A stretch of 64,000 nucleotides of DNA from Olleya namhaensis (lineage in GTDB: Bacteria; Bacteroidota; Bacteroidia; Flavobacteriales; Flavobacteriaceae): the NCBI RefSeq assembly GCF_900114005.1, contig NZ_FORM01000004.1:1-64000 (forward strand), read 5' to 3'. Under the pieces are notes generated by a model, which saw only the letters and a list, made by a program, of their open reading frames with translations, was not told where the DNA came from and searched no databases. Below are positions 1 through 22,492 of the stretch, one piece after another; the first letter of the stretch is position 1; each line of letters opens with the position of its first letter. A program made the position numbers and the translations under genes.

Positions 1-1821
1 GAAGTAATCACAGCAACAACAGATTGTGATATGGATGGATTAACTGATGCAGAAGAGATCAACGGACCAGATGGAGATCCAACAACAGATGACGGAACAG
101 ACCCAACAGATCCTGATACAGATGGAGATGGTGTGTTAGACGGAACAGAAGTTACAAACGGAACAAATCCAAATGATGCTTGTGAGTATAACGTAGCAGA
201 TATTACAGAAGTAATCACAGCAGCAATAGATTGTGATATGGATGGTTTATTAGATGTTGAAGAAGTTACAGGAGTAGATGATCCATCTACACCAGCTGAT
301 CCAGCAGGAAACACAACTGATCCTTCAGATCCTGATACAGATGGAGATGGAGTAACAGATGGACAAGAAGCTTTAGATGGAACAAATCCTAATGATGCAT
401 GTGACTATGTAGTAGCAAGTATTACATTGACTATTGATTCAGGAGCAGATTGTGATATGGACGGATTAACAGATGCGGAAGAGCTTACAGGAGTAGATGA
501 TCCATCTACACCGGCTGATCCAGCAGGAAACACAACTGACCCTATAGATCCAGATACAGACGGAGACGGAGTAACAGATGGACAAGAAGCTTTAGATGGA
601 ACAGATCCTAATGATGCATGTGACTATTTAGTAGCAAGTGTTACATTGACTATTGATTCTGGAGCAGATTGTGATATGGATGGTTTATTAGATGTTGAAG
701 AAGTTACAGGAGTAGATGATCCATCTACACCAGCTGATCCAGCAGGAAACACGACTGATCCTACAGATCCTGATACAGATGGAGATGGAGTAATTGACGG
801 ACAAGAAGCTTTAGACTTAACAGATCCTAATGATCCTTGTAATTATTTATTAGGAAGTATTACTTTAGCTCAAGATTCAGTATTCCTTGATGCGGATTGT
901 GATGGTGATGGAGTAAGTAATGGTCAAGAAGAAATAGACGGAACAGATGCATTAGATCCTTGTGATTACTTAGCAACAAGTCAAGATATTTCAATAGTAT
1001 CTGCAGCTTGGGAAGCAATTGATTGTGATGGAGATGGTGTAGTTAACGGAACAGAATTAGAAGATAGTACTGATCCTCAAAACCCATGTGACTTTATTAC
1101 ATCAAGTACTACAGTTCCTCAATCTATGGAATGGTTAGCTGGAGATTGTGATATGGATAACGTGTCTAACGGAGAAGAATTTCCTTTAGGAGATACAGAC
1201 GGAGATGGTATACCTAACTGGATGGATACTGATGATGATAATGATGGTGTAGATACTATTAACGAAGATTATGCTGATACTGATGATTCTGATGGTGATA
1301 TAGATCCTACGGGAGATGATGATCCAACTAACGATGATACAGACGGAGATGGTATTCCAGATTACTTAGATACGGATGATGATAATGATGGAATTTTAAC
1401 TCCAGATGAGTATCCAGACCCTAATGAAGATGGTATCGGATTCGGTGATGATGCAGTAGATAGTGATGGTGATGGTTTACCAGATTACTTAGATGTAAAC
1501 AACGCAGCGCCTTCTGAAGATGATCTTGAAATATTTAATGCGGTTACGCCTAACGGAGATGGTGAAAACGATGTGTTTATTATTAGAAACATTGAGCTTT
1601 ACCCTGAAAATACTGTTAAGATTTATAACAGATGGGGAGTTATTGTATATGAAACGTCAGGATACGCTCAAAACGGAAACTTCTTTAAAGGAGAGTCTAA
1701 TGGTAGAGTAAATGTTCAAGTTGATGAGCAATTACCAGTAGGAACTTACTTCTATACTATTGAGTATAATAAGTCAGGTGAAACTAAATCAAGAGCTGGA
1801 TACTTATATATCCAACGATAA
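1..1821 (+). CDS. SprB-like giant surface adhesin, C-terminal part (5' end outside window)
   Basis: The reading frame is already open at base 1, so only the last 606 residues are visible. The first ~380 residues are near-identical tandem modules rich in DxDxDG motifs (thrombospondin type 3-like calcium-binding repeats), each with a CDxDG Cys. Further DTDGDG repeats follow at ~390-500. Residues ~510-606 form a type-B T9SS sorting domain (TPNGDG, then VKIYNRWG and a GTYFY strand, ending YIQR), the family known from gliding-motility adhesins. Such proteins cross the outer membrane through the T9SS and are held at the cell surface. The next genes encode PorP/SprF and a PorE-like protein, the arrangement known for SprB/SprF, so this is probably the secreted partner of that PorP/SprF. 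The full protein could be several thousand residues long. Confidence 0.85.
   Translation, partial: EVITATTDCDMDGLTDAEEINGPDGDPTTDDGTDPTDPDTDGDGVLDGTEVTNGTNPNDACEYNVADITEVITAAIDCDMDGLLDVEEVTGVDDPSTPADPAGNTTDPSDPDTDGDGVTDGQEALDGTNPNDACDYVVASITLTIDSGADCDMDGLTDAEELTGVDDPSTPADPAGNTTDPIDPDTDGDGVTDGQEALDGTDPNDACDYLVASVTLTIDSGADCDMDGLLDVEEVTGVDDPSTPADPAGNTTDPTDPDTDGDGVIDGQEALDLTDPNDPCNYLLGSITLAQDSVFLDADCDGDGVSNGQEEIDGTDALDPCDYLATSQDISIVSAAWEAIDCDGDGVVNGTELEDSTDPQNPCDFITSSTTVPQSMEWLAGDCDMDNVSNGEEFPLGDTDGDGIPNWMDTDDDNDGVDTINEDYADTDDSDGDIDPTGDDDPTNDDTDGDGIPDYLDTDDDNDGILTPDEYPDPNEDGIGFGDDAVDSDGDGLPDYLDVNNAAPSEDDLEIFNAVTPNGDGENDVFIIRNIELYPENTVKIYNRWGVIVYETSGYAQNGNFFKGESNGRVNVQVDEQLPVGTYFYTIEYNKSGETKSRAGYLYIQR
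231..890 (+). repeat. 219-bp tandem coding repeats in the adhesin
   Basis: The segment starting TGTGATATGG recurs at 231, 450 and 669, an exact period of 219 bp (73 codons). The copies differ mostly at single bases. A diverged copy precedes them at 27 and shorter relatives follow at about 898. Each unit encodes a CDMDG...DPSTPADPAG...DPDTDGDG...DPNDACDY module. Confidence 0.9.
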
Positions 1822-1836
1822 TAATTAATAAAAAAA

Positions 1837-1864
1837 AGAGATAGCCTTTCAAATGGCTATCTCT
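1837..1864 (+). terminator. Hairpin after adhesin gene
   Basis: A perfect 10-bp stem (AGAGATAGCC / GGCTATCTCT) with an 8-nt loop starts 15 bases after the adhesin stop. There is an A-run before it but no T-run after it, so it may only partly stop + strand transcription and let some reach the PorP/SprF gene. Confidence 0.5.
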
Positions 1865-1893
1865 AATTAAAGAATAATTATACCCTATTTATA

Positions 1894-2829
1894 ATGAAAA
1901 ATAAAATTTTAATTTTAGTAACTCTTATAAGTGCTTTTAGCTTTATAGATGTTTCTGCCCAGCAAGATGCTCAGTTTACTCAGTATATGTATAACACTAT
2001 GAGTGTAAACCCGGCTTACGCAGGGTCTAGAGATGGTTTAAGTGCGTTATTGTTATACCGTACGCAATGGGTTGGATTAGACGGAGCGCCAGATACTGGT
2101 ACTTTCAATATCCATTCACCTATTGGAGGAGAAGATGGTAAAGTAGGTTTAGGTTTATCTGTTGTAAATGACAGAATAGGTCCAACACAGGAAACTTATG
2201 TTGATGTTGACTTTTCATATACTATTAATACATCGGATAAAGGAAGATTATCTTTAGGTTTAAAAGCCGGTGGTCACTTGTTAGATGTTAAGTATTCTGA
2301 ATTAAATCAATATAATGCTGGGGATCCATTATTACAAACGGATATCGAAAATAAATTTTCGCCAAATGTTGGTGCTGGTATATATTACCGTAGTGCAGAT
2401 AAGTGGTACTTAGGTTTATCTGTTCCTAATTTATTAGAAACAAAGCATTTTGATGAAGCGTCTTTATCTCAAGCGACAGAAAGAATGAATGCTTATTTAA
2501 TTGGAGGTTATGTATTTGATATTAATACAGATTTAAAATTAAAGCCAGCATTTTTAATGAAAGCTGTTACAGGAGCACCATTACAAGCAGATTTAACTGT
2601 AAACGCATTATATAAAGAAAAATTTACTGTTGGTTTAGCATACCGTTGGTCTGCTGCATTAAGTGGACTTTTAGGATACCAAGTTTCGGATAGTTTAATG
2701 CTAGGGTTTGGATATGATAGAGAGGTTACAGATTTAGGGCAAACACAATTTAATTCAGGTTCTTTTGAAGTGTTTTTAAGATTTGAACCAAGAGATCTTA
2801 CTAAGATTTTATCACCAAGATTCTTTTAA
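1894..2829 (+). CDS. PorP/SprF family type IX secretion system membrane protein
   Basis: A 311-residue outer-membrane beta-barrel protein. It begins with a signal peptide of ~22 residues ending SAQ. The mature start QDAQFTQYMYNTMSVNPAYAGS is the hallmark of the PorP/SprF family, followed by alternating strands and a C-terminal strand ending RFEPRDL. Family members sit in the outer membrane and are needed for secretion or attachment of the T9SS cargo encoded beside them (SprF for SprB). The gene lies 72 bases after the adhesin stop and 23 bases before the OmpA-like gene. The neighbours suggest it serves the upstream adhesin. It could instead be the core PorP, but the adhesin neighbour favours the SprF-like role. 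Confidence 0.9.
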   Translation: MKNKILILVTLISAFSFIDVSAQQDAQFTQYMYNTMSVNPAYAGSRDGLSALLLYRTQWVGLDGAPDTGTFNIHSPIGGEDGKVGLGLSVVNDRIGPTQETYVDVDFSYTINTSDKGRLSLGLKAGGHLLDVKYSELNQYNAGDPLLQTDIENKFSPNVGAGIYYRSADKWYLGLSVPNLLETKHFDEASLSQATERMNAYLIGGYVFDINTDLKLKPAFLMKAVTGAPLQADLTVNALYKEKFTVGLAYRWSAALSGLLGYQVSDSLMLGFGYDREVTDLGQTQFNSGSFEVFLRFEPRDLTKILSPRFF

Positions 2830-2852
2830 TATATATATAGACAATATAGATT

Positions 2853-4766
2853 ATGAAAAATAAATATATACTTTCTACTTTAATCATTCTACTAACATTT
2901 ACCTTTTCATTTGCACAAGATGATGGTATCTCTTCTAGTACAGATAAAAAGTACGATAAGCTTTCTTACATAGAAACAACTAAGGAATTGTTGAAACTAG
3001 TAGAGAAAGGAAATAAAACACCAGAAGTTTACAAAAAGTTAGCTAACTCTTATTATTTCAATACTCAGATGGAGGATGCCTCTAAATGGTACGGAGAGTT
3101 ATTTAAATTAGATGCAGTTGTAGAATATGAGTATTACTACAGATATGCAATGAGTTTAAAAGCAATTGGAGACTACGAGAATGCTAACGTTAACATGAGA
3201 AAGTTTGCTACGTATAAGCCAGAAGATTCTAGAGCAATATTATTTTCTAAATCACCTAATTATTTAGAAGCTATTGAAGCGCTTTCAGGAGATTTCGAAT
3301 TAGAAAATTTAGATATAAACTCTCGTTTTTCTGATTTTGGTACTTCTTTTTATAAAGATGGAATTGTTTTCGCTTCATCAAGAGGAGAAGGTAAATTATA
3401 CAAATGGAATGAACAACCATTTTTAGATTTGTATTATTCAGTTAACGAAACTGATGATGTAAAGGTTTTTTCTCCTAAGTTAAATACAAAGTTTCATGAG
3501 TCTTCTACGTCATTCACTCAAGATGGAAATACAATTTACTTTACAAGAAATAATTACTTTAAGGGTAAAGTTAAAAAGAGTGATGAAAAAGTTAATGGTT
3601 TAAAAATATTTAAAGCTGAATTTATTAATGGTGCATGGACTAATTTAGTTAGTATGCCTTTTAATAACAATCAATATAACGTTGCTCACCCAGCACTAAG
3701 TTTAGATGAGACTAAATTATATTTTGCTAGTGATATGCCTGGTACTCACGGTAAGTCTGATATCTATTATGTTGATATTTTAGAAGATGGTACTTATGGA
3801 GAGCCTGTTAATTTAGGTGGGGATATTAATACAGAGGGTAGAGAAAATTTTCCGTACATAAGTAATAATGGAACACTTTACTTTTCTTCTGATGGACACC
3901 AAGGTTTAGGAGGTTTAGATATTTTTATGACTAAGCTTGATGATGTTAATCATGAAGTAGTAAACTTAGGGAAGCCATTAAATAGTTCTAGAGATGATTT
4001 TGAGTTTATTATTGACGAGTTTTCTAACACAGGATACTTAACATCTAATAGATATAACGGAAAAGGTGATGATGATATTTACAAGTTTACTAGAACATTC
4101 TGTACGCAATTAATATCTGGTACGACAGTAAACAAATTGACTAACGTTATTATACCTTACGCAAGTGTTGTAGTTATAAACGAAAAAGGAGTTGAAGTAC
4201 AAAACTTAACTTCTGATCAAAATGGAGCATTTAGTTATGAAGGACCGTGTAACAAACAAAAGTATAATATCATAGCATCTAAAGATGGTTATATTCAAGC
4301 GGATCAAACATTCTTAGTTAATCCTAAGAAGAAAGAGGATGTGGTTTTAAAACTAAACTTAACACCTGAAACTACAAAACCTGCAGAAGTTGGTATGGAC
4401 TTAGTAGAAGTGTTAGATTTAAATCCAATATACTTTGATTTTGACAAGTCTAACATTAGACCAGATGCTGAAGTTGAATTATGGAAAGTAATTAATTACA
4501 TGAGAAAATATCCTTCAGTAAGAATCGATGTTCAGTCTCATACAGATTCAAGAGCAACAGATGATTACAACTGGGCATTATCTAACAGAAGAAACGTTTC
4601 AACTAAACAATACATAATCCAGGAAGGTGGTATTGCTGCTGATAGATTAGAAGGTAGAGGTTATGGAGAAACAATGTTAGTAAACAGATGTAGTAACGGT
4701 GTAAAATGTACCGAAGACGAACATGATTGGAATAGAAGAAGTAACTTTATTATTATCAACAGATAG
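2853..4766 (+). CDS. PorE-like OmpA family protein (TPR, PD40 propeller, CRD, OmpA domains)
   Basis: A 637-residue exported protein with an N-terminal signal peptide (cleavage near FAQ, residue ~21). Domains in order are TPR-like helices (~40-150), PD40/WD40-like propeller blades (~170-410, with repeated SSDGHQG/ASDMPGTHGKSDIYYVD-type motifs), a carboxypeptidase-regulatory-like beta-sandwich (~420-500), and an OmpA peptidoglycan-binding domain (~520-637, with NPIYFDFDKSNIRPDA and an SNRR segment). This order matches PorE, a protein linking the T9SS to peptidoglycan. Paralogues commonly sit beside PorP/SprF-adhesin pairs, as here, so this may be a locus-specific copy and not the core PorE. A strong terminator follows. 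Confidence 0.85.
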   Translation: MKNKYILSTLIILLTFTFSFAQDDGISSSTDKKYDKLSYIETTKELLKLVEKGNKTPEVYKKLANSYYFNTQMEDASKWYGELFKLDAVVEYEYYYRYAMSLKAIGDYENANVNMRKFATYKPEDSRAILFSKSPNYLEAIEALSGDFELENLDINSRFSDFGTSFYKDGIVFASSRGEGKLYKWNEQPFLDLYYSVNETDDVKVFSPKLNTKFHESSTSFTQDGNTIYFTRNNYFKGKVKKSDEKVNGLKIFKAEFINGAWTNLVSMPFNNNQYNVAHPALSLDETKLYFASDMPGTHGKSDIYYVDILEDGTYGEPVNLGGDINTEGRENFPYISNNGTLYFSSDGHQGLGGLDIFMTKLDDVNHEVVNLGKPLNSSRDDFEFIIDEFSNTGYLTSNRYNGKGDDDIYKFTRTFCTQLISGTTVNKLTNVIIPYASVVVINEKGVEVQNLTSDQNGAFSYEGPCNKQKYNIIASKDGYIQADQTFLVNPKKKEDVVLKLNLTPETTKPAEVGMDLVEVLDLNPIYFDFDKSNIRPDAEVELWKVINYMRKYPSVRIDVQSHTDSRATDDYNWALSNRRNVSTKQYIIQEGGIAADRLEGRGYGETMLVNRCSNGVKCTEDEHDWNRRSNFIIINR

Positions 4767-7185: not shown

Positions 7186-8493
7186 CTAACCGCCCGAGGC
7201 TAATTGCATTAAAATTGTACAACCAATTGCGGCTAAAGTACCAACAGCGTATCCAAATACAGCTAACAATACGCCAACAGTGGCTAGTGATGGATGGAAG
7301 GCGGAAGCAACAATAGGAGCAGAGGCTGCACCACCAACATTAGCTTGACTACCTACTGCTAAAAAGAAATAAGGCGCTTTTATAAGTTTAGCAATACCTA
7401 TCAATAGTAAGGCATGGATAGTCATCCATACAAACCCAATAGCTATTAAGCCTACATTGTCAAATATAGAGCTGATGTCAATTTTCATTCCAATAGTAGC
7501 AACTAGTATGTAAATAAATACGCTTCCAAATTTACTTGCGCCTGCACCTTCGTAATTTTTAGCTTTTGTAAACGATAGTAAAATAGCAACAATTGTTGCT
7601 ATACTTATCATCCAGAAAAACGTACTATCTAAAAATGTAAATGTGTTTTTTATTGTTGTAGACTCGATCTCGGATATTATTCTTCCAAAAAAAGGAGCTA
7701 TGTTATCAGCACTAAAATGAGCAAAACTTACTGTTCCAAAAGCAATTGCGGCTAGTAACATAAGGTCGGTAACTGTTGGGTTGCGTTTTACACTTTCCGT
7801 AAACTTGGACATTTTTTCTTTTAAAGCTTCAATAGACGATGTGTCAGCTTTTAACCATTTGTTTATTTTAGCGCGTTTTCCTATTCCTATTAATAGTATG
7901 GCCATCCAAACATTAGCCACAACTATATCAACAAAAACCATTTTACCATACTCTGCTTGATTATAACCGTAAATTTCTAGCATTGCAGTTTGGTTAGCGC
8001 CACCACCAATCCAACTTCCGGCTAAAGTTGATAATCCTCTCCATACAGCATCAGGTCCTACGCCTCCAACAGTCTCTGGCGAAATGGCAGATATTAGCAA
8101 TATTGCTATTGGACCTCCTATAATAATACCTACAGTTCCTGTAAAAAACATAATCAGGGCTTTCCAACCTAAATTAAATACTGCTTTTAGATCAATACTT
8201 AGTGTCATAAGTACTAAAGCAGCAGGTAATAGGTAACGACTGGCAACAAAATATAAGTTTGTTTTATGCGCTACAACAGTACCGGTATTTGTAGTAGTTT
8301 CCCATTCTGGAGCTATTAAACCAATGGTAGTTAGTATGGCGGGTAGCATATAGGCCATAAATAGCCCTGGTACAATTTTATAAAATTTTTCCCAGAAGCC
8401 TCCTTTTAAAGATTCTGTGTAAAAAATCAAACCTAATGCTAGCATTAACACCCCGAAAACAACGGTGTCGTTTGTAAATAATGGTTCACTCAT
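7186..8493 (-). CDS. DUF819 family membrane protein (putative permease)
   Basis: A 435-residue integral inner-membrane protein with about eleven hydrophobic segments and glycine-rich loops such as GSWIGGGANQTAM (~158) and a Gln-Asn pair in SQANVGGAASAP (~380). These fit the DUF819 family (YjcL-like), which resembles bile-acid/sodium symporters and other inverted-repeat transporters. The substrate is unknown. It is monocistronic, transcribed away from the small RNA array that begins 68 bases upstream of its start. Confidence 0.85.
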   Translation of the reverse strand: MSEPLFTNDTVVFGVLMLALGLIFYTESLKGGFWEKFYKIVPGLFMAYMLPAILTTIGLIAPEWETTTNTGTVVAHKTNLYFVASRYLLPAALVLMTLSIDLKAVFNLGWKALIMFFTGTVGIIIGGPIAILLISAISPETVGGVGPDAVWRGLSTLAGSWIGGGANQTAMLEIYGYNQAEYGKMVFVDIVVANVWMAILLIGIGKRAKINKWLKADTSSIEALKEKMSKFTESVKRNPTVTDLMLLAAIAFGTVSFAHFSADNIAPFFGRIISEIESTTIKNTFTFLDSTFFWMISIATIVAILLSFTKAKNYEGAGASKFGSVFIYILVATIGMKIDISSIFDNVGLIAIGFVWMTIHALLLIGIAKLIKAPYFFLAVGSQANVGGAASAPIVASAFHPSLATVGVLLAVFGYAVGTLAAIGCTILMQLASGG

Positions 8494-8561
8494 AGTGTTG
8501 GTATATTATTAACGCAAAATAATCAAATAAAATGGTTATTTAAAGCTCATAAAATAAAGTT

Positions 8562-8577
8562 TGGCACAGCATTTGTA
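8562..8577 (+). promoter_or_regulatory. Sigma-54 promoter of sRNA unit 1
   Basis: TGGCAC, 5 bp, TTGTA matches the -24/-12 consensus (TGGCAC-N5-TTGCW) with exact spacing. The expected start, about 12 nt past the -12 element, falls at ~8588, the first base of the closing stem of the RNA. Confidence 0.75.
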
Positions 8578-8587
8578 TTATAGAAGT

Positions 8588-8702
8588 TGTAATCAAATAT
8601 GATGACTTTCTTACACTAGGTGTGGTTACCTAAACAGAAACGAGTAATGATTACATTGGTTGGTTAGTATGAAAAAGCACTCTTTTTAGAGTGCTTTTTC
8701 TA
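8588..8702 (+). ncRNA. Tandem sRNA unit 1
   Basis: A predicted RNA of ~115 nt. The 5' segment 8588-8595 (TGTAATCA) pairs with 8648-8655 (TGATTACA). Inside lies a conserved hairpin TAGGT-GTGGTT-ACCTA (8617-8632). A conserved stretch GGTTGGTTAGTATG follows, then the intrinsic terminator 8672-8699 (AGCACTCT/AGAGTGCT and a T-run). Unit 2 keeps both stems while changing the paired bases (C-G to T-A in the closing stem; different terminator stem), which supports an RNA product. No plausible protein is encoded. I do not recognise a named family. Confidence 0.75.
8672..8699 (+). terminator. Terminator of sRNA unit 1
   Basis: Stem AGCACTCT / AGAGTGCT with a TTTT loop, an A-run before and a T-run after. 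Confidence 0.85.
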
Positions 8703-8754
8703 TTTAATCATTTTAGTAAATCTTTAACAATCCTAAATGTTAGTTAGTTGTTAT

Positions 8755-8770
8755 TGGCACGACTGTTGTA
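8755..8770 (+). promoter_or_regulatory. Sigma-54 promoter of sRNA unit 2
   Basis: TGGCAC, GACTG, TTGTA: -24 and -12 elements with the exact 5-bp gap, 193 bp after the same site in unit 1. The expected start is ~8781, again the first base of the closing stem. Confidence 0.78.
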
Positions 8771-8780
8771 TTATTAGAGT

Positions 8781-8892
8781 TGTAATTATATATGTTGACT
8801 TTCATTAGGTGTGGTTACCTAGACAGAAACGAGTAATAATTACATTGGTTGGTTAGTATGAAAAAGCATCCTTTTTAGGATGCTTTTTCTAT
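8781..8892 (+). ncRNA. Tandem sRNA unit 2
   Basis: A predicted RNA of ~110 nt. The closing stem 8781-8788 (TGTAATTA) pairs with 8837-8844 (TAATTACA). The internal hairpin TAGGT-GTGGTT-ACCTA (8806-8821) and the segments GACTTTC, ACAGAAACGAGTAA and GGTTGGTTAGTATG are shared with unit 1. The terminator is at 8865-8888 (AGCATCCT/AGGATGCT). Sequence between units (about 50 bp before each promoter) is much less alike than the units, so conservation follows the transcript and its promoter. Confidence 0.75.
8865..8889 (+). terminator. Terminator of sRNA unit 2
   Basis: Stem AGCATCCT / AGGATGCT with a TTTT loop and T-run. Compared with unit 1 the stem bases have changed in pairs. Confidence 0.85.
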
Positions 8893-8943
8893 ATAATACA
8901 TTTAATAAAGCTTTAACAATACGTTGTTTGTTGTAACTAGAAA

Positions 8944-8959
8944 TGGCATGACAATTGCA
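8944..8959 (+). promoter_or_regulatory. Sigma-54 promoter of sRNA unit 3
   Basis: TGGCAT, GACAA, TTGCA: the -12 element is a perfect consensus and the -24 element has one change; spacing is exact. It lies 189 bp after the unit 2 site. The expected start is ~8970. Confidence 0.8.
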
Positions 8960-8969
8960 TTACTGTAAT

Positions 8970-9086
8970 AGTAATTATATATGTAGACTTTCACTTAGGT
9001 GTGGTTACCTAAACGAAACGAGTTGTAATTATCATATTTTTGGTTGGTTAGTATGAAAAAGCATCCTTTTAAGGATGCTTTTTCTA
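8970..9086 (+). ncRNA. Tandem sRNA unit 3
   Basis: A predicted RNA of ~115 nt and the most diverged copy. The closing stem 8971-8979 pairs with 9024-9032 (nine pairs, two of them G-U). The hairpin TTAGGT-GTGGTT-ACCTAA (8995-9012) is one pair longer than in the other units. GACTTTC, GAAACGAGT and TTGGTTGGTTAGTATG are kept, with an insertion of T residues before the last. The terminator at 9060-9083 is 18 bases from the stop of the convergent hydrolase gene and may serve both strands. Confidence 0.72.
9056..9084 (+). terminator. Terminator of sRNA unit 3 (bidirectional)
   Basis: Stem AGCATCCTT / AAGGATGCT with a TT loop, flanked by A5 and T5. It also lies just past the end of the minus-strand gene at 9104. 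Confidence 0.85.
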
Positions 9087-9103: not shown

Positions 9104-10027
9104 TTAATGATTTATAAACGTAGTAATACAGTTTAGTAACTCTGGAGATAGAGCTCTTTGTGACTCGTTGTAAGATTTTGAATTTTCTAGATCACCACCA
9201 GATATAGTAACTAAAACGTGATTCATGTTTGGTATAATCTTCAATTCTGATGTAGGTGCAGCATCATGTAATAGTTTAGCTTCGGCTTCACTTACTTGTA
9301 AATCTTTTGTGCCATTTGTAATCAAAATAGGAATCTCCAAAGTACTTAAAATCTCTGTTGGATTGTATTGCATCCAATTCATAATAAAACGTTGCGTTTC
9401 GATATTAAAAATAGAAGATAGGGCAACAGGATAATCCGTTGTTGTTTTTCCTGCTTTTAAAAGTTTGAAAATTCTTTTGGTATCCGCCGTAAATTGCGGT
9501 GCTGTTTTTTCTACTTGTTCTGTAATAAGTTGATCAATACTTAAAGCTGTTCCTGCTATGGATATAAAACCATCGGCAGCATCTTTAGCGGCTAACATCC
9601 CAATTAAACTACCTTGGTCATGACCAATAATATAGATATGCTTATAATTATTTTTAGTCTTAAAGTAGGTCATTACGGCTGATGCATCTGCCACAAAGTC
9701 ATCAAACATAATATTATTAGCTACGGTCTTATTGCGTATTTGTTTAACAATCCTTTTGTCATATCTAAAGGTTGCAATATTTTGGTTTGCTAAATGTGTA
9801 GCAAGTTTTTTTATATTATTTGTTTTCTGAAAATTTTGATTACCATCTTTATCCGTTGGTCCTGATCCACCAATAATTATAGCCAGTGTACTAGCTGGTG
9901 TATTTGGCTTTAAAAGTGTCCCGTTAATATGCTGGTTTATAGCAATATCTTGACTAATAGGCGTGGCATCTTGTGCGTTAGCAAAAAATGAAGTTATTGC
10001 AAGTAGTATTAAGATGTGTAATTTCAT
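9104..10027 (-). CDS. Secreted alpha/beta hydrolase
   Basis: A 307-residue protein with a signal peptide (MKLHILILLAITSFFANAQ) and an alpha/beta-hydrolase core. An oxyanion-type GGSGPTDKDGN segment is at ~53-63. The nucleophile elbow is GHDQGSLIG (~139-147, Ser as nucleophile), with a candidate acidic residue in NGTKDLQVSEAEA (~238-250) and the catalytic His in PNMNHVL (~261-267). It is probably a periplasmic esterase or peptidase-like enzyme; the substrate is unknown. It is monocistronic and converges on the small RNA array. Confidence 0.85.
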   Translation of the reverse strand: MKLHILILLAITSFFANAQDATPISQDIAINQHINGTLLKPNTPASTLAIIIGGSGPTDKDGNQNFQKTNNIKKLATHLANQNIATFRYDKRIVKQIRNKTVANNIMFDDFVADASAVMTYFKTKNNYKHIYIIGHDQGSLIGMLAAKDAADGFISIAGTALSIDQLITEQVEKTAPQFTADTKRIFKLLKAGKTTTDYPVALSSIFNIETQRFIMNWMQYNPTEILSTLEIPILITNGTKDLQVSEAEAKLLHDAAPTSELKIIPNMNHVLVTISGGDLENSKSYNESQRALSPELLNCITTFINH

Positions 10028-19455: not shown

Positions 19456-20340
19456 ATGCAAAAGCATTTTAAATTTTTCTTGTTTGTCTTTGTCCTAATA
19501 AGTGCTGTTAATACTGCTAATGCTCAGTTAACAGATTTAGCACGTGTAGAGTATTCTTATATTCCAAAAAATAATTCTGAAGACAGTTTTGATAGGTTTA
19601 GGTTTCTATTAAATTACCCTATAAAAATGAGCGAAGATGCTTACCTTTTAATTGGTAGTGAGTATAGTAGAATTACATTAAACTTGGAAGATAGTTACCC
19701 ATTTCCAACTTCTAATTTAAGACGTTTGCATGTTTTAGATTTTAATTTAGGATACACTTTTAAAATGTCTGAAAATTGGAGATTTGGCGCAAAAATAACA
19801 CCAAGATTAGCTTCTACTTTACGACATAAGATCTCAGGAGACGATATTTTTTTAAACGGAGGGGTTTATGCTATTAACGATAGGACTAAAGATAAAACGG
19901 CTAGCAAACCTTATAGATTAGTTTTAGGGCTTACCTATAATACTACAACTGGTATACCATTACCACTACCTTTTGTTAGTTATTTTAGACGTGTTAACGA
20001 GAAATGGTCTTATAATTTAGGAGTGCCAAAAACTAATGTAAAATATTATATAAACGAAAATAATATTATCCAAACCTTTGTAGGGATTGATGGTTATTTT
20101 GCCAACACACAAGAGCGTTTTTCAATTGATGGTAAGGAAGCGGATAGCGTCTCATTATCATTAGTATTAGCAGGTATTGGATATGAGTATTGTTTTACGG
20201 ACCATTTAGTATGGTACGCTTATACAGGTTACACATTAAGTATGAGTAATAGGTTGAGAGACGAGAACAGAGAAGATGTATTTAAGCTTGACAACGTCAA
20301 TACATTTTATTTAAGAACAGGATTTAAATTTAAAATATAA
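19456..20340 (+). CDS. DUF6268-type outer-membrane beta-barrel protein
   Basis: A 294-residue protein with a signal peptide ending ANAQ (~24), followed by alternating amphipathic strands typical of a barrel (YLLIGSEYSRI, FRFGAKITPRL, LVLAGIGYEY) and a final strand ending FKFKI with a terminal hydrophobic residue. It best fits the DUF6268 group; function unknown. Its stop overlaps the start of the response-regulator gene by one base (TAATG), so translation is probably coupled. Confidence 0.75.
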   Translation: MQKHFKFFLFVFVLISAVNTANAQLTDLARVEYSYIPKNNSEDSFDRFRFLLNYPIKMSEDAYLLIGSEYSRITLNLEDSYPFPTSNLRRLHVLDFNLGYTFKMSENWRFGAKITPRLASTLRHKISGDDIFLNGGVYAINDRTKDKTASKPYRLVLGLTYNTTTGIPLPLPFVSYFRRVNEKWSYNLGVPKTNVKYYINENNIIQTFVGIDGYFANTQERFSIDGKEADSVSLSLVLAGIGYEYCFTDHLVWYAYTGYTLSMSNRLRDENREDVFKLDNVNTFYLRTGFKFKI

Positions 20341-21503
20341 TGCCAAAAATTTTAGTAATAGAGGACGAAGCAGCAATTAGGAGAGTATTAGTTAAAATCC
20401 TTTCGGAGGAAAACGATACCTATCAAGTAGAAGAAGCTGAGGATGGATTAGTTGGTATCAATAAAATTAAAAAAGAAGATTACGATTTAATTCTGTGTGA
20501 CATTAAAATGCCAAAAATGGATGGTGTTGAGGTGTTAGAAGCAGCAAAAAAGATTAAACCAGAAATACCAATGGTAATGATCTCTGGTCACGGAGATCTA
20601 GATACAGCTGTAAATACAATGCGTTTAGGGGCTTTTGATTATATCTCAAAGCCGCCAGATTTAAACCGTTTATTAAACACCGTACGTAACGCGCTAGACA
20701 GAAAAGAATTAGTTATAGAAAACAAAATTCTAAAAAGAAAAGTTAGCAAAAAGTATGAAATGATTGGTAATAGCGACGCTATTTCTCAAATCAAAGATAT
20801 TATAGATAAAGTGGCTCCAACGGATGCAAGAGTTTTAATAACTGGACCAAACGGAACAGGTAAAGAGCTTGTAGCACACTGGTTACACGAAAAAAGTACA
20901 CGTGCAAAAGCACCAATGATAGAGGTTAACTGTGCAGCAATACCGTCAGAGTTAATAGAAAGTGAGCTTTTTGGTCACGTAAAAGGGGCGTTTACAAGTG
21001 CAGCAAAAGACAGAGCTGGTAAATTTGAAGCGGCTAATGGCGGAACCATTTTTCTTGACGAAATTGGTGATATGAGCCTATCTGCTCAAGCAAAAGTATT
21101 ACGTGCTTTACAAGAAAGTCGCATCCAACGTGTTGGTAGCGATAAGGATATAAAAGTAAACGTACGTGTCGTTGCAGCAACCAATAAAAATTTAAAAAAG
21201 GAAATCGCAGATGGTAATTTCCGTGAGGATTTATACCACAGATTAGCAGTAATACTAGTTAAAGTGCCGGCTTTAAACGAGAGAAGAGAGGATATCCCGT
21301 TATTAATTAATCATTTTTCCGCAAAAATTGCAGAAGAGCAAGGTACTGCACATAAATCATTTTCGGCTAAAGCCATAAAATTATTACAAGATTACGACTG
21401 GACAGGTAACATTAGAGAGTTGCGTAATGTTGTAGAAAGATTAATAATATTAGGAGCAGCAGAGGTGAGTGAGCAAGACGTAAAATTATTTGCAAGTAAA
21501 TAA
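20340..21503 (+). CDS. NtrC-type response regulator without DNA-binding domain
   Basis: A 387-residue protein. The receiver (1-120) has the phospho-acceptor D54 (LCDIKMP), S82 and K104. The AAA+ domain (~140-380) has Walker A GPNGTGKE (169-176), Walker B IFLDE (237-241) and the arginine-finger region FREDLYHRL. The loop that contacts sigma-54 reads GAFTSA (216-221), where the consensus is GAFTGA. The protein stops right after the AAA+ domain (LFASK) with no Fis-type helix-turn-helix, as in a few activators that work from solution. It may activate sigma-54 promoters such as those of the small RNAs and grpE; no partner kinase lies adjacent. Confidence 0.9.
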   Translation: MPKILVIEDEAAIRRVLVKILSEENDTYQVEEAEDGLVGINKIKKEDYDLILCDIKMPKMDGVEVLEAAKKIKPEIPMVMISGHGDLDTAVNTMRLGAFDYISKPPDLNRLLNTVRNALDRKELVIENKILKRKVSKKYEMIGNSDAISQIKDIIDKVAPTDARVLITGPNGTGKELVAHWLHEKSTRAKAPMIEVNCAAIPSELIESELFGHVKGAFTSAAKDRAGKFEAANGGTIFLDEIGDMSLSAQAKVLRALQESRIQRVGSDKDIKVNVRVVAATNKNLKKEIADGNFREDLYHRLAVILVKVPALNERREDIPLLINHFSAKIAEEQGTAHKSFSAKAIKLLQDYDWTGNIRELRNVVERLIILGAAEVSEQDVKLFASK

Positions 21504-22396: not shown

Positions 22397-22492
22397 GGGC
22401 GTTACCACAAGGGTCGCGCTTTCCATTATATCTTTTTTTGCCATTTGTGGCAGCAAAAAAAGGATGCCATTTCAATCGCTAACGCAAACCGC
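22397..22492. repeat. REP-like palindromic intergenic element
   Basis: It begins GGGCGTTACC with GGGTCGCGC, contains a long internal hairpin around GCCA-TTTG-TGGC flanked by T7 and A7, then CAATCGCTAACGC, whose AACGC pairs with the initial GCGTT. This layout resembles the dispersed GGGCGTT...AACGC elements common between Bacteroidota genes. Outer AACCGC (22487) and GCGGTT (22515) arms add a further inverted repeat. Confidence 0.55.

Follow-up and report, generated by a model that had tools for sequence, protein, structure and literature searches.

Three tandem genes for a predicted sigma-54-driven small RNA in Olleya namhaensis and their relatives in Flavobacteriaceae

The window, i.e. the whole 64-kb stretch of Olleya namhaensis DNA that was analysed, contains at positions 8562-9086 a tandem array of three direct repeats. 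Their spacing of 193 and 189 bp, and their positions as given in the initial annotation, were confirmed when the sequence was checked. Each unit consists, from 5' to 3', of a TGGCAY-N5-TTGYA element, a folded 5' domain that begins about 11 bases past TTGTA or TTGCA, a single-stranded linker, TTGGTTGGTTAG, and an intrinsic terminator. The array is flanked by a divergent and a convergent gene, and the features are arranged as follows.

7186..8493, minus strand: gene for a DUF819 membrane protein, divergent, on the promoter-side flank; a type of gene often next to the sRNA in other genera
8562..8577, plus strand: sigma-54 promoter of unit 1, TGGCAC-N5-TTGTA, by motif match
8588..8703, plus strand: predicted sRNA 1, about 115 nt, start inferred from the -24/-12 geometry; fold z-score -4.38
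8617..8632, plus strand: inner hairpin TAGGTGTGGTTACCTA of unit 1
8656..8671, plus strand: single-stranded linker TTGGTTGGTTAGTATG of unit 1, putative seed
8671..8700, plus strand: intrinsic terminator of unit 1
8755..8770, plus strand: sigma-54 promoter of unit 2, TGGCAC-N5-TTGTA
8781..8892, plus strand: predicted sRNA 2; fold z-score -4.95
8845..8860, plus strand: linker of unit 2
8860..8889, plus strand: intrinsic terminator of unit 2
8944..8959, plus strand: sigma-54 promoter of unit 3, TGGCAT-N5-TTGCA
8970..9086, plus strand: predicted sRNA 3; fold z-score -3.43
9040..9055, plus strand: linker of unit 3
9055..9084, plus strand: intrinsic terminator of unit 3
9104..10027, minus strand: alpha/beta hydrolase gene, convergent, on the terminator-side flank; commonest neighbour of the sRNA in other genera

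The 16-base linker TTGGTTGGTTAGTATG occurs in three exact copies in the 3.52-Mb genome, all of them in these units, and a plasmid search gave no match. A short ATG frame at the linker was rejected as coding: the ATG that follows TTGGTTGGTTAG varies, and many other genera have TTAGTTAGT at this place, so that the frame is not conserved.

Relatives were searched for with a covariance model made from the three units (R1), which contains no promoter. Strong tandem copies were found in all ten Olleya genomes, with two to four in each (3, 2, 2, 3, 4, 4, 2, 2, 2 and 2 in G000 to G009, weak separate matches left out), and matches at E 0.001 were present in 18 of the 60 genomes searched. A promoter-blind scan of named bacterial and archaeal genomes with the pattern TTGGTTGGTTAGT-N(1-8)-AAAAAGCA, which covers the linker and the start of the terminator, yielded at least 126 units in at least 118 loci. 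Most of the listed loci come from genomes named as Flavobacteriaceae (Winogradskyella, Algibacter, Gelidibacter, Formosa, Bizionia, Lacinutrix, Kordia, Mangrovimonas and others); a few lie in metagenome-assembled genomes labelled only Bacteroidia or Bacteroidetes and one in such a genome of Clostridiaceae. The combination of promoter and linker, TTGGCAYN5TTG-N(50-80)-TTGGTTGGTTAG, was present in 100 of 397 Flavobacteriaceae genomes and in 70 of 237 genera, with a maximum of five matches per genome (G383); at least one match (G090) resembles coding DNA by eye. The reversed pattern did not occur among the matches listed for the same 397 genomes. A looser model (R3) gave matches in 299 of the 397 genomes, but some of these are weak and may be no more than terminators matched by chance, and the extent of the family was therefore taken from the count of promoter plus linker.

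The predicted fold was then compared between units and relatives. The paired change in the outer stem from GTAATCA/TGATTAC in unit 1 to GTAATTA/TAATTAC in unit 2, which had been noticed from the sequence, is real, and so are the paired changes in the terminator stem, where two are compensatory. Two other observations of the initial annotation held in part. The transcript was said to start on the first base of the closing stem, but in the predicted fold of unit 3 the first base is unpaired and the stem runs from the next base. Among the elements described as constant and single-stranded, the linker core TTGGTTGGTTAG is indeed constant in relatives, themselves chosen by it, whereas the GAAA of GAAACGAGT is predicted to pair with UUUC in units 1 and 3 and varies in other genera. 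Covariation of the closing stem was found again in the relatives. In 30 non-redundant units the pairing of the predicted 5' end with the segment before the linker had a mean of -6.64 kcal/mol, against -3.80 (sd 0.31) when the partners were swapped. In a 66-row alignment (65 rows distinct) both sides had changed in 25 of 29 pairs compared with 16.0 in shuffles; this alignment leans towards the structure because it was fitted to R1. From an alignment that was not fitted to structure the closing stem was not predicted, only the terminator, in which four of 11 pairs had changed on both sides. A conserved structure with compensatory changes that ends in a terminator is what is expected of a sigma-54-dependent sRNA. 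Between genera there are strong differences in the 5' domain, its inner part included, and the linker is invariant, as judged in aligned relatives that had been selected with the linker.

The genomic surroundings were surveyed in 76 loci, to which the other Olleya genomes contributed only L075 and L084. Next to the promoter, the closest gene is an SPFH gene in divergent orientation in 39 of the 76 loci, a DUF819 gene in 20 and a presumably DUF4369-like gene in 14. On the terminator side the first gene encodes an alpha/beta hydrolase in 40 loci and what is taken to be an AlkB-like protein in 13. Because the same neighbours recur, the array is, on gene order, an old resident of one genomic slot rather than a mobile element. 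In six of the ten Olleya assemblies the contig starts about 8 kb before the sRNA. The window has at 31-4766 (plus strand) what is presumably a repeat-rich adhesin-like gene, followed by genes taken to be PorP/SprF-like and OmpA-like, and those contigs are perhaps broken at the repeat of this gene.

The linker is probably a trans-acting element. Its complement CTAACCAACCAA, with one mismatch allowed, was used as a search word in the own genome, where it has 45 sites other than those in the sRNAs. Five of these lie on the sense strand at most 30 nt upstream of a start codon, a leader window that was picked after the sites had been seen. Two precede the genes for an ECF sigma factor and a LytTR regulator (Pfam), and the other three precede what are taken to be genes for an OmpA-type protein, an M16-type peptidase and a sensor kinase; a sixth site, which precedes an ATG inside a longer frame, was left out. 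When the 118 other loci and the window were analysed together, three of 211 matches of the real word were in such leaders (a total that includes the antisense of sRNA units) and three of 526 matches of shuffled words. Pairing with the linker at -16 kcal/mol or below was predicted for 1.1% of 823 leaders compared with 0-0.24% for six shuffled linkers, orthologues being counted repeatedly. The totals of the linker complement were near those of the control in most of the ten Olleya genomes (48 versus 42 in the own genome, sRNA units included), G008 being the exception with 76 versus 36.

The leader of the ECF sigma factor gene was followed in other genomes. Its pairing with the linker had a mean of -15.70 in nine Olleya genomes, -14.73 in 23 further genomes that have either the sRNA or a strong R3 match, and -12.19 in 26 genomes in which no sRNA was found; the difference between the latter two (P 0.014) is confounded by kinship. 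None of 150 shuffled linkers was as good, neither in the 23 genomes with the sRNA nor in the 26 without. In a first set of 26 distinct ECF sigma leaders the real linker likewise beat all 150 shuffled linkers, as it did for the LytTR and SPFH leaders. Since the ECF sigma leader is complementary also where the sRNA was not found, it is a lead and not an established target. On these pairing predictions the ECF sigma operon is the best candidate, be it not a decisive one. LytTR was rejected as a conserved target, as its leader site is present in only five of the nine Olleya genomes scored.

It could be argued that the RNA acts on a protein: the repeated GGUU/UAGUU of the linker would then titrate or recruit an RNA-binding protein, as CsrB-type RNAs do, and pairing with mRNA would be incidental. 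Both the repetitiveness of the linker, with its invariance in the aligned relatives (selected with it), and the scarce enrichment of complementary sites genome-wide would agree with such a role. It would also fit the Bacteroides protein RbpB, which in the available text of the study concerned is described as binding a multicopy sRNA family with a preference for single-stranded regions (PMC11697453). That as many as five of the 45 complementary sites are situated just upstream of start codons, far above what is seen with shuffled words, argues against protein binding as the main function, which is considered unlikely. Pairing of the linker with leaders is the reading preferred here.

The linker was also encountered outside the sRNA genes. 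In six loci (L032, L074, L110, L120, L133 and L136) the linker TTGGTTGGTTAG and the terminator start come after a ClpB gene, which was assigned by the end of its sequence and checked with Pfam in L110 only. In L032 and L133 linker and terminator start recur after the next gene, the L032 copy being one A shorter. Going by genome names, two of the six genomes also carry the sigma-54 sRNA (L110 with L081, L120 with L066). No -24/-12 element was found within 200 bp of the six clpB starts (the gene in L074 is cut). As the module is common to two unrelated transcripts, linker and terminator are argued to have a job of their own, and from its sequence the clpB linker-terminator is possibly a 3'-UTR RNA with the seed of the sRNA. 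The occurrence of the linker with the AAAAAGCA terminator start at the ends of clpB mRNAs and of a few further genes that have no sigma-54 promoter nearby might also be taken to mean that the linker is part of a terminator module and strengthens termination, in which case the RNA would owe its conserved function to the 5' domain, which is variable, or to the act of transcription. In Olleya, however, the confinement of the exact 16-base linker to the three units implies that it is no general terminator signal, and across genera it is the 5' domain that varies strongly and not the linker. A mere role in termination is thus improbable, and the linker is further regarded as the pairing element.

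For the promoter, the initial annotation had claimed -24/-12 elements at exact spacing in all three units, and these are present at 8562, 8755 and 8944. TGGCAYN5TTGYA has only these three sites in the 64-kb window, where 0.11 would be expected and none of 100 shuffles reached three. In eight loci of other genera that had been found with the promoter-less R1 (L015-L022), a strict -24/-12 element lies near the predicted place in six; TGGCAC-N5-TTGAA is visible in L021 and no -24/-12 element in L020. Seven of the 126 units listed by the promoter-blind scan were too close to the end of their locus, which left 119 scorable. TGGCAY-N5-TTG was present at most 135 bp upstream in 101 of these 119, among the matches listed, and TGGCAY and TTG separated by another spacer (2, 3, 4, 6, 7, 8 or 9) in none; as a control, TGGCAY-N5-TTG was found at 66 of 9440 random positions of the listed loci. 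With the stricter TGGYAY-N5-TTGYW, a first pass over the first 80 loci had found the element in 49 of their 80 scorable units. The 18 promoter-less units include two that are coding DNA by eye (L140 and L141), the Clostridiaceae match, the clpB 3' ends, one apparently degraded copy (L036) and a few others. Preservation of the promoter at the correct place and with exact spacing in relatives that were collected promoter-blind supports the sigma-54 reading. The looser TGGCAYN5TTGYW is not enriched in the own genome (14 sites versus 13 for its reverse), so that the motif alone proves nothing elsewhere. That the element is a chance match or a mimic of the Bacteroidetes sigma-A promoter (TAnnTTTG box), the units being driven by the housekeeping sigma, would accord with this lack of enrichment and with the 18 linker-bearing units without the motif, but is most improbable in view of 101 of 119 units having the N5 spacer and none any other from 2 to 9, against the 66 of 9440 random positions.

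Two further observations concern promoters. Linker-terminator units without a -24/-12 element follow another terminator-like stretch at L137:2376 and L139:5985 (both on the minus strand, reverse-strand offsets), and are possibly copies with a changed promoter type. In L147, from the Olleya genome, three tandem genes, presumably cold-shock-like, are each preceded by TGGCAY-N5-TTGTA; a sigma-54 reading of these sites is doubtful.

RpoN is encoded in one copy in the own genome. It is present in 394 of the 397 Flavobacteriaceae genomes, and its co-occurrence with the sRNA is for that reason uninformative. The sigma-54 activator domain has ten matching places in the own genome, four of them strong; the sigma-54-contacting loop reads GAFTGA or GSFTGA in three of the strong matches and GAFTSA in the fourth (window 20340-21503). 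The genome thus encodes both RpoN and canonical enhancer-binding activators, as is to be expected for a sigma-54-dependent sRNA. The NtrC-type activator at C18:277966-279291 is unlikely to be the sole activator, because no match to it at E 1e-130 exists in four Olleya genomes that have the array (G003, G006, G007 and G008, of which G006 is only 75% complete). The response regulator at 20340-21503 (plus strand) has a Sigma54_activat domain, but its GAFTSA loop, together with the fact that Pfam finds no DNA-binding domain in it, indicates that it is probably no longer a sigma-54 activator. The candidates left are one gene on C19, presumably adjoining MiaB-like and LptE-like genes, and a GAF/PAS hybrid on C18. 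By eye, no shared activator site was evident upstream of the promoters across loci; a GATATCA motif present upstream in many loci was rejected as common site, as it tracks the SPFH neighbour and is absent from loci without an SPFH gene.

The conserved promoter, the covarying stem, the kept slot and the absence of an Rfam match together suggest that the units very probably belong to an inherited, sigma-54-locked sRNA family, which extends over about 70 of the 237 sampled genera. That they specify a sigma-54-driven noncoding RNA is hardly to be doubted. In the explanation put forward here, one noncoding RNA of about 112-117 nt would be specified three times over by the array, every copy being its own transcription unit, read by the RpoN form of RNA polymerase once an enhancer-binding activator has been switched on; the redundant regulatory RNAs that the initial annotation envisaged would likewise be expressed when such an activator is on. 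A stem formed by the 5' end and the segment directly before the linker would close off a folded domain, leaving the UUGGUUGGUUAG linker single-stranded between two structured parts. As the working part, the linker would pair in trans with A/C-rich leaders of the CUAACCAACCAA type just upstream of start codons, and in these bacteria, which have no Shine-Dalgarno sequences, a group of mRNAs would thereby be translated less. The dose of the RNA would depend on the number of gene copies, which is 2-4 in Olleya and 1-5 elsewhere. This explanation of tandem, RpoN-driven sRNA genes whose linker lowers translation by pairing with leaders is, as a whole, quite probable, and for translational repression by pairing at leaders, taken by itself, the chances seem evenly balanced.

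In the part of the work on Flavobacterium psychrophilum that is available, this bacterium is described as having no Shine-Dalgarno sequences and its -24/-12 (SM4) promoters are tied to mapped 5' ends; the sigma-54 genes so defined comprise chaperones, envelope quality control, a gliding operon and one putative regulatory RNA, Rfp36 (PMC9723704). By analogy, the Olleya sRNAs may provide a stress regulon with its RNA arm. A joint reading, speculative and rather doubtful, would be that in Flavobacteriaceae the sRNAs are this arm of a sigma-54 stress regulon. The seed UUGGUUGGUUAG of the promoter-locked family would pair with A/C-rich CUAACCAACCAA before the AUG of mRNAs without a Shine-Dalgarno sequence and keep ribosomes off the mRNAs of certain signalling and envelope genes (the ECF sigma/DUF4252 operon and those for the putative OmpA-type protein and M16-type peptidase). 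The 3' end of the clpB mRNA would have acquired the seed-terminator module too, and the chaperone mRNA would in this way release a second RNA with the same seed.

The initial annotation recognised no named family in the units, in agreement with which no Rfam family reached its gathering score in them; the best of 29 sub-threshold matches had an E of 0.031. A published description of the family was not found in a search of open-access main texts. On sequence grounds the units very probably encode a real regulatory RNA, of a family for which no name was found. Flavo-1 (RF01705), an Rfam sRNA family with which comparison had been suggested, is also present in the window (22408-22488, minus strand, 59.5 bits), and the three units do not match it at the gathering score. 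This Flavo-1 RNA follows closely on an activator-like gene and a presumably PPK2-like one.

Sigma-54-driven stand-alone sRNAs are best known from Vibrio. Qrr is a short RNA with a conserved unpaired region and a terminator, and its family is in Rfam. The available texts describe sigma-54-dependent transcription of quorum regulatory RNA (PMC10162802) and five Qrr RNAs in V. harveyi (PMC8043402). The comparison with Qrr drawn in the initial annotation is apt as an analogy: the Olleya units share the dependence on sigma-54, in their case predicted, the multiple copies and the build of a short RNA with an unpaired conserved region and a terminator. They differ in belonging to another phylum, in their tandem arrangement in one slot and in linker and fold, and at the Rfam gathering score they are not Qrr RNAs; they would work like Qrr without being members. 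From the same bacterial family comes Rfp36 (THC0290_N_0510), in the accessible part of its report a putative regulatory RNA that follows an SM4 (sigma-54) promoter at a mapped 5' end. Compared by description and position of the transcription start only, it may be a member of the family; it differs from the tandem array in being one gene at one locus according to the table given (PMC9723704). In the same phylum, FopS is described, in the text available, as a multicopy Bacteroides sRNA family with 14 members that is bound by RbpB and represses SusC translation via a shared seed; it resembles the Olleya family in copy number and shared seed and differs in its sigma-ABfr promoters (PMC11697453). 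An sRNA from the glutamine synthetase 3'UTR of Enterobacteriaceae, called RpoN-dependent in the part available, is alike by description only, and differs in being released from an mRNA 3'UTR instead of having a stand-alone tandem gene (PMC9731577). Against this background, the present family is one in another phylum than Vibrio that keeps its sigma-54 promoter in about 70 Flavobacteriaceae genera and in a fixed slot, and it offers a handle on the role of sigma-54 in Flavobacteriaceae and on how sRNAs find their targets where mRNAs have no Shine-Dalgarno sequence.
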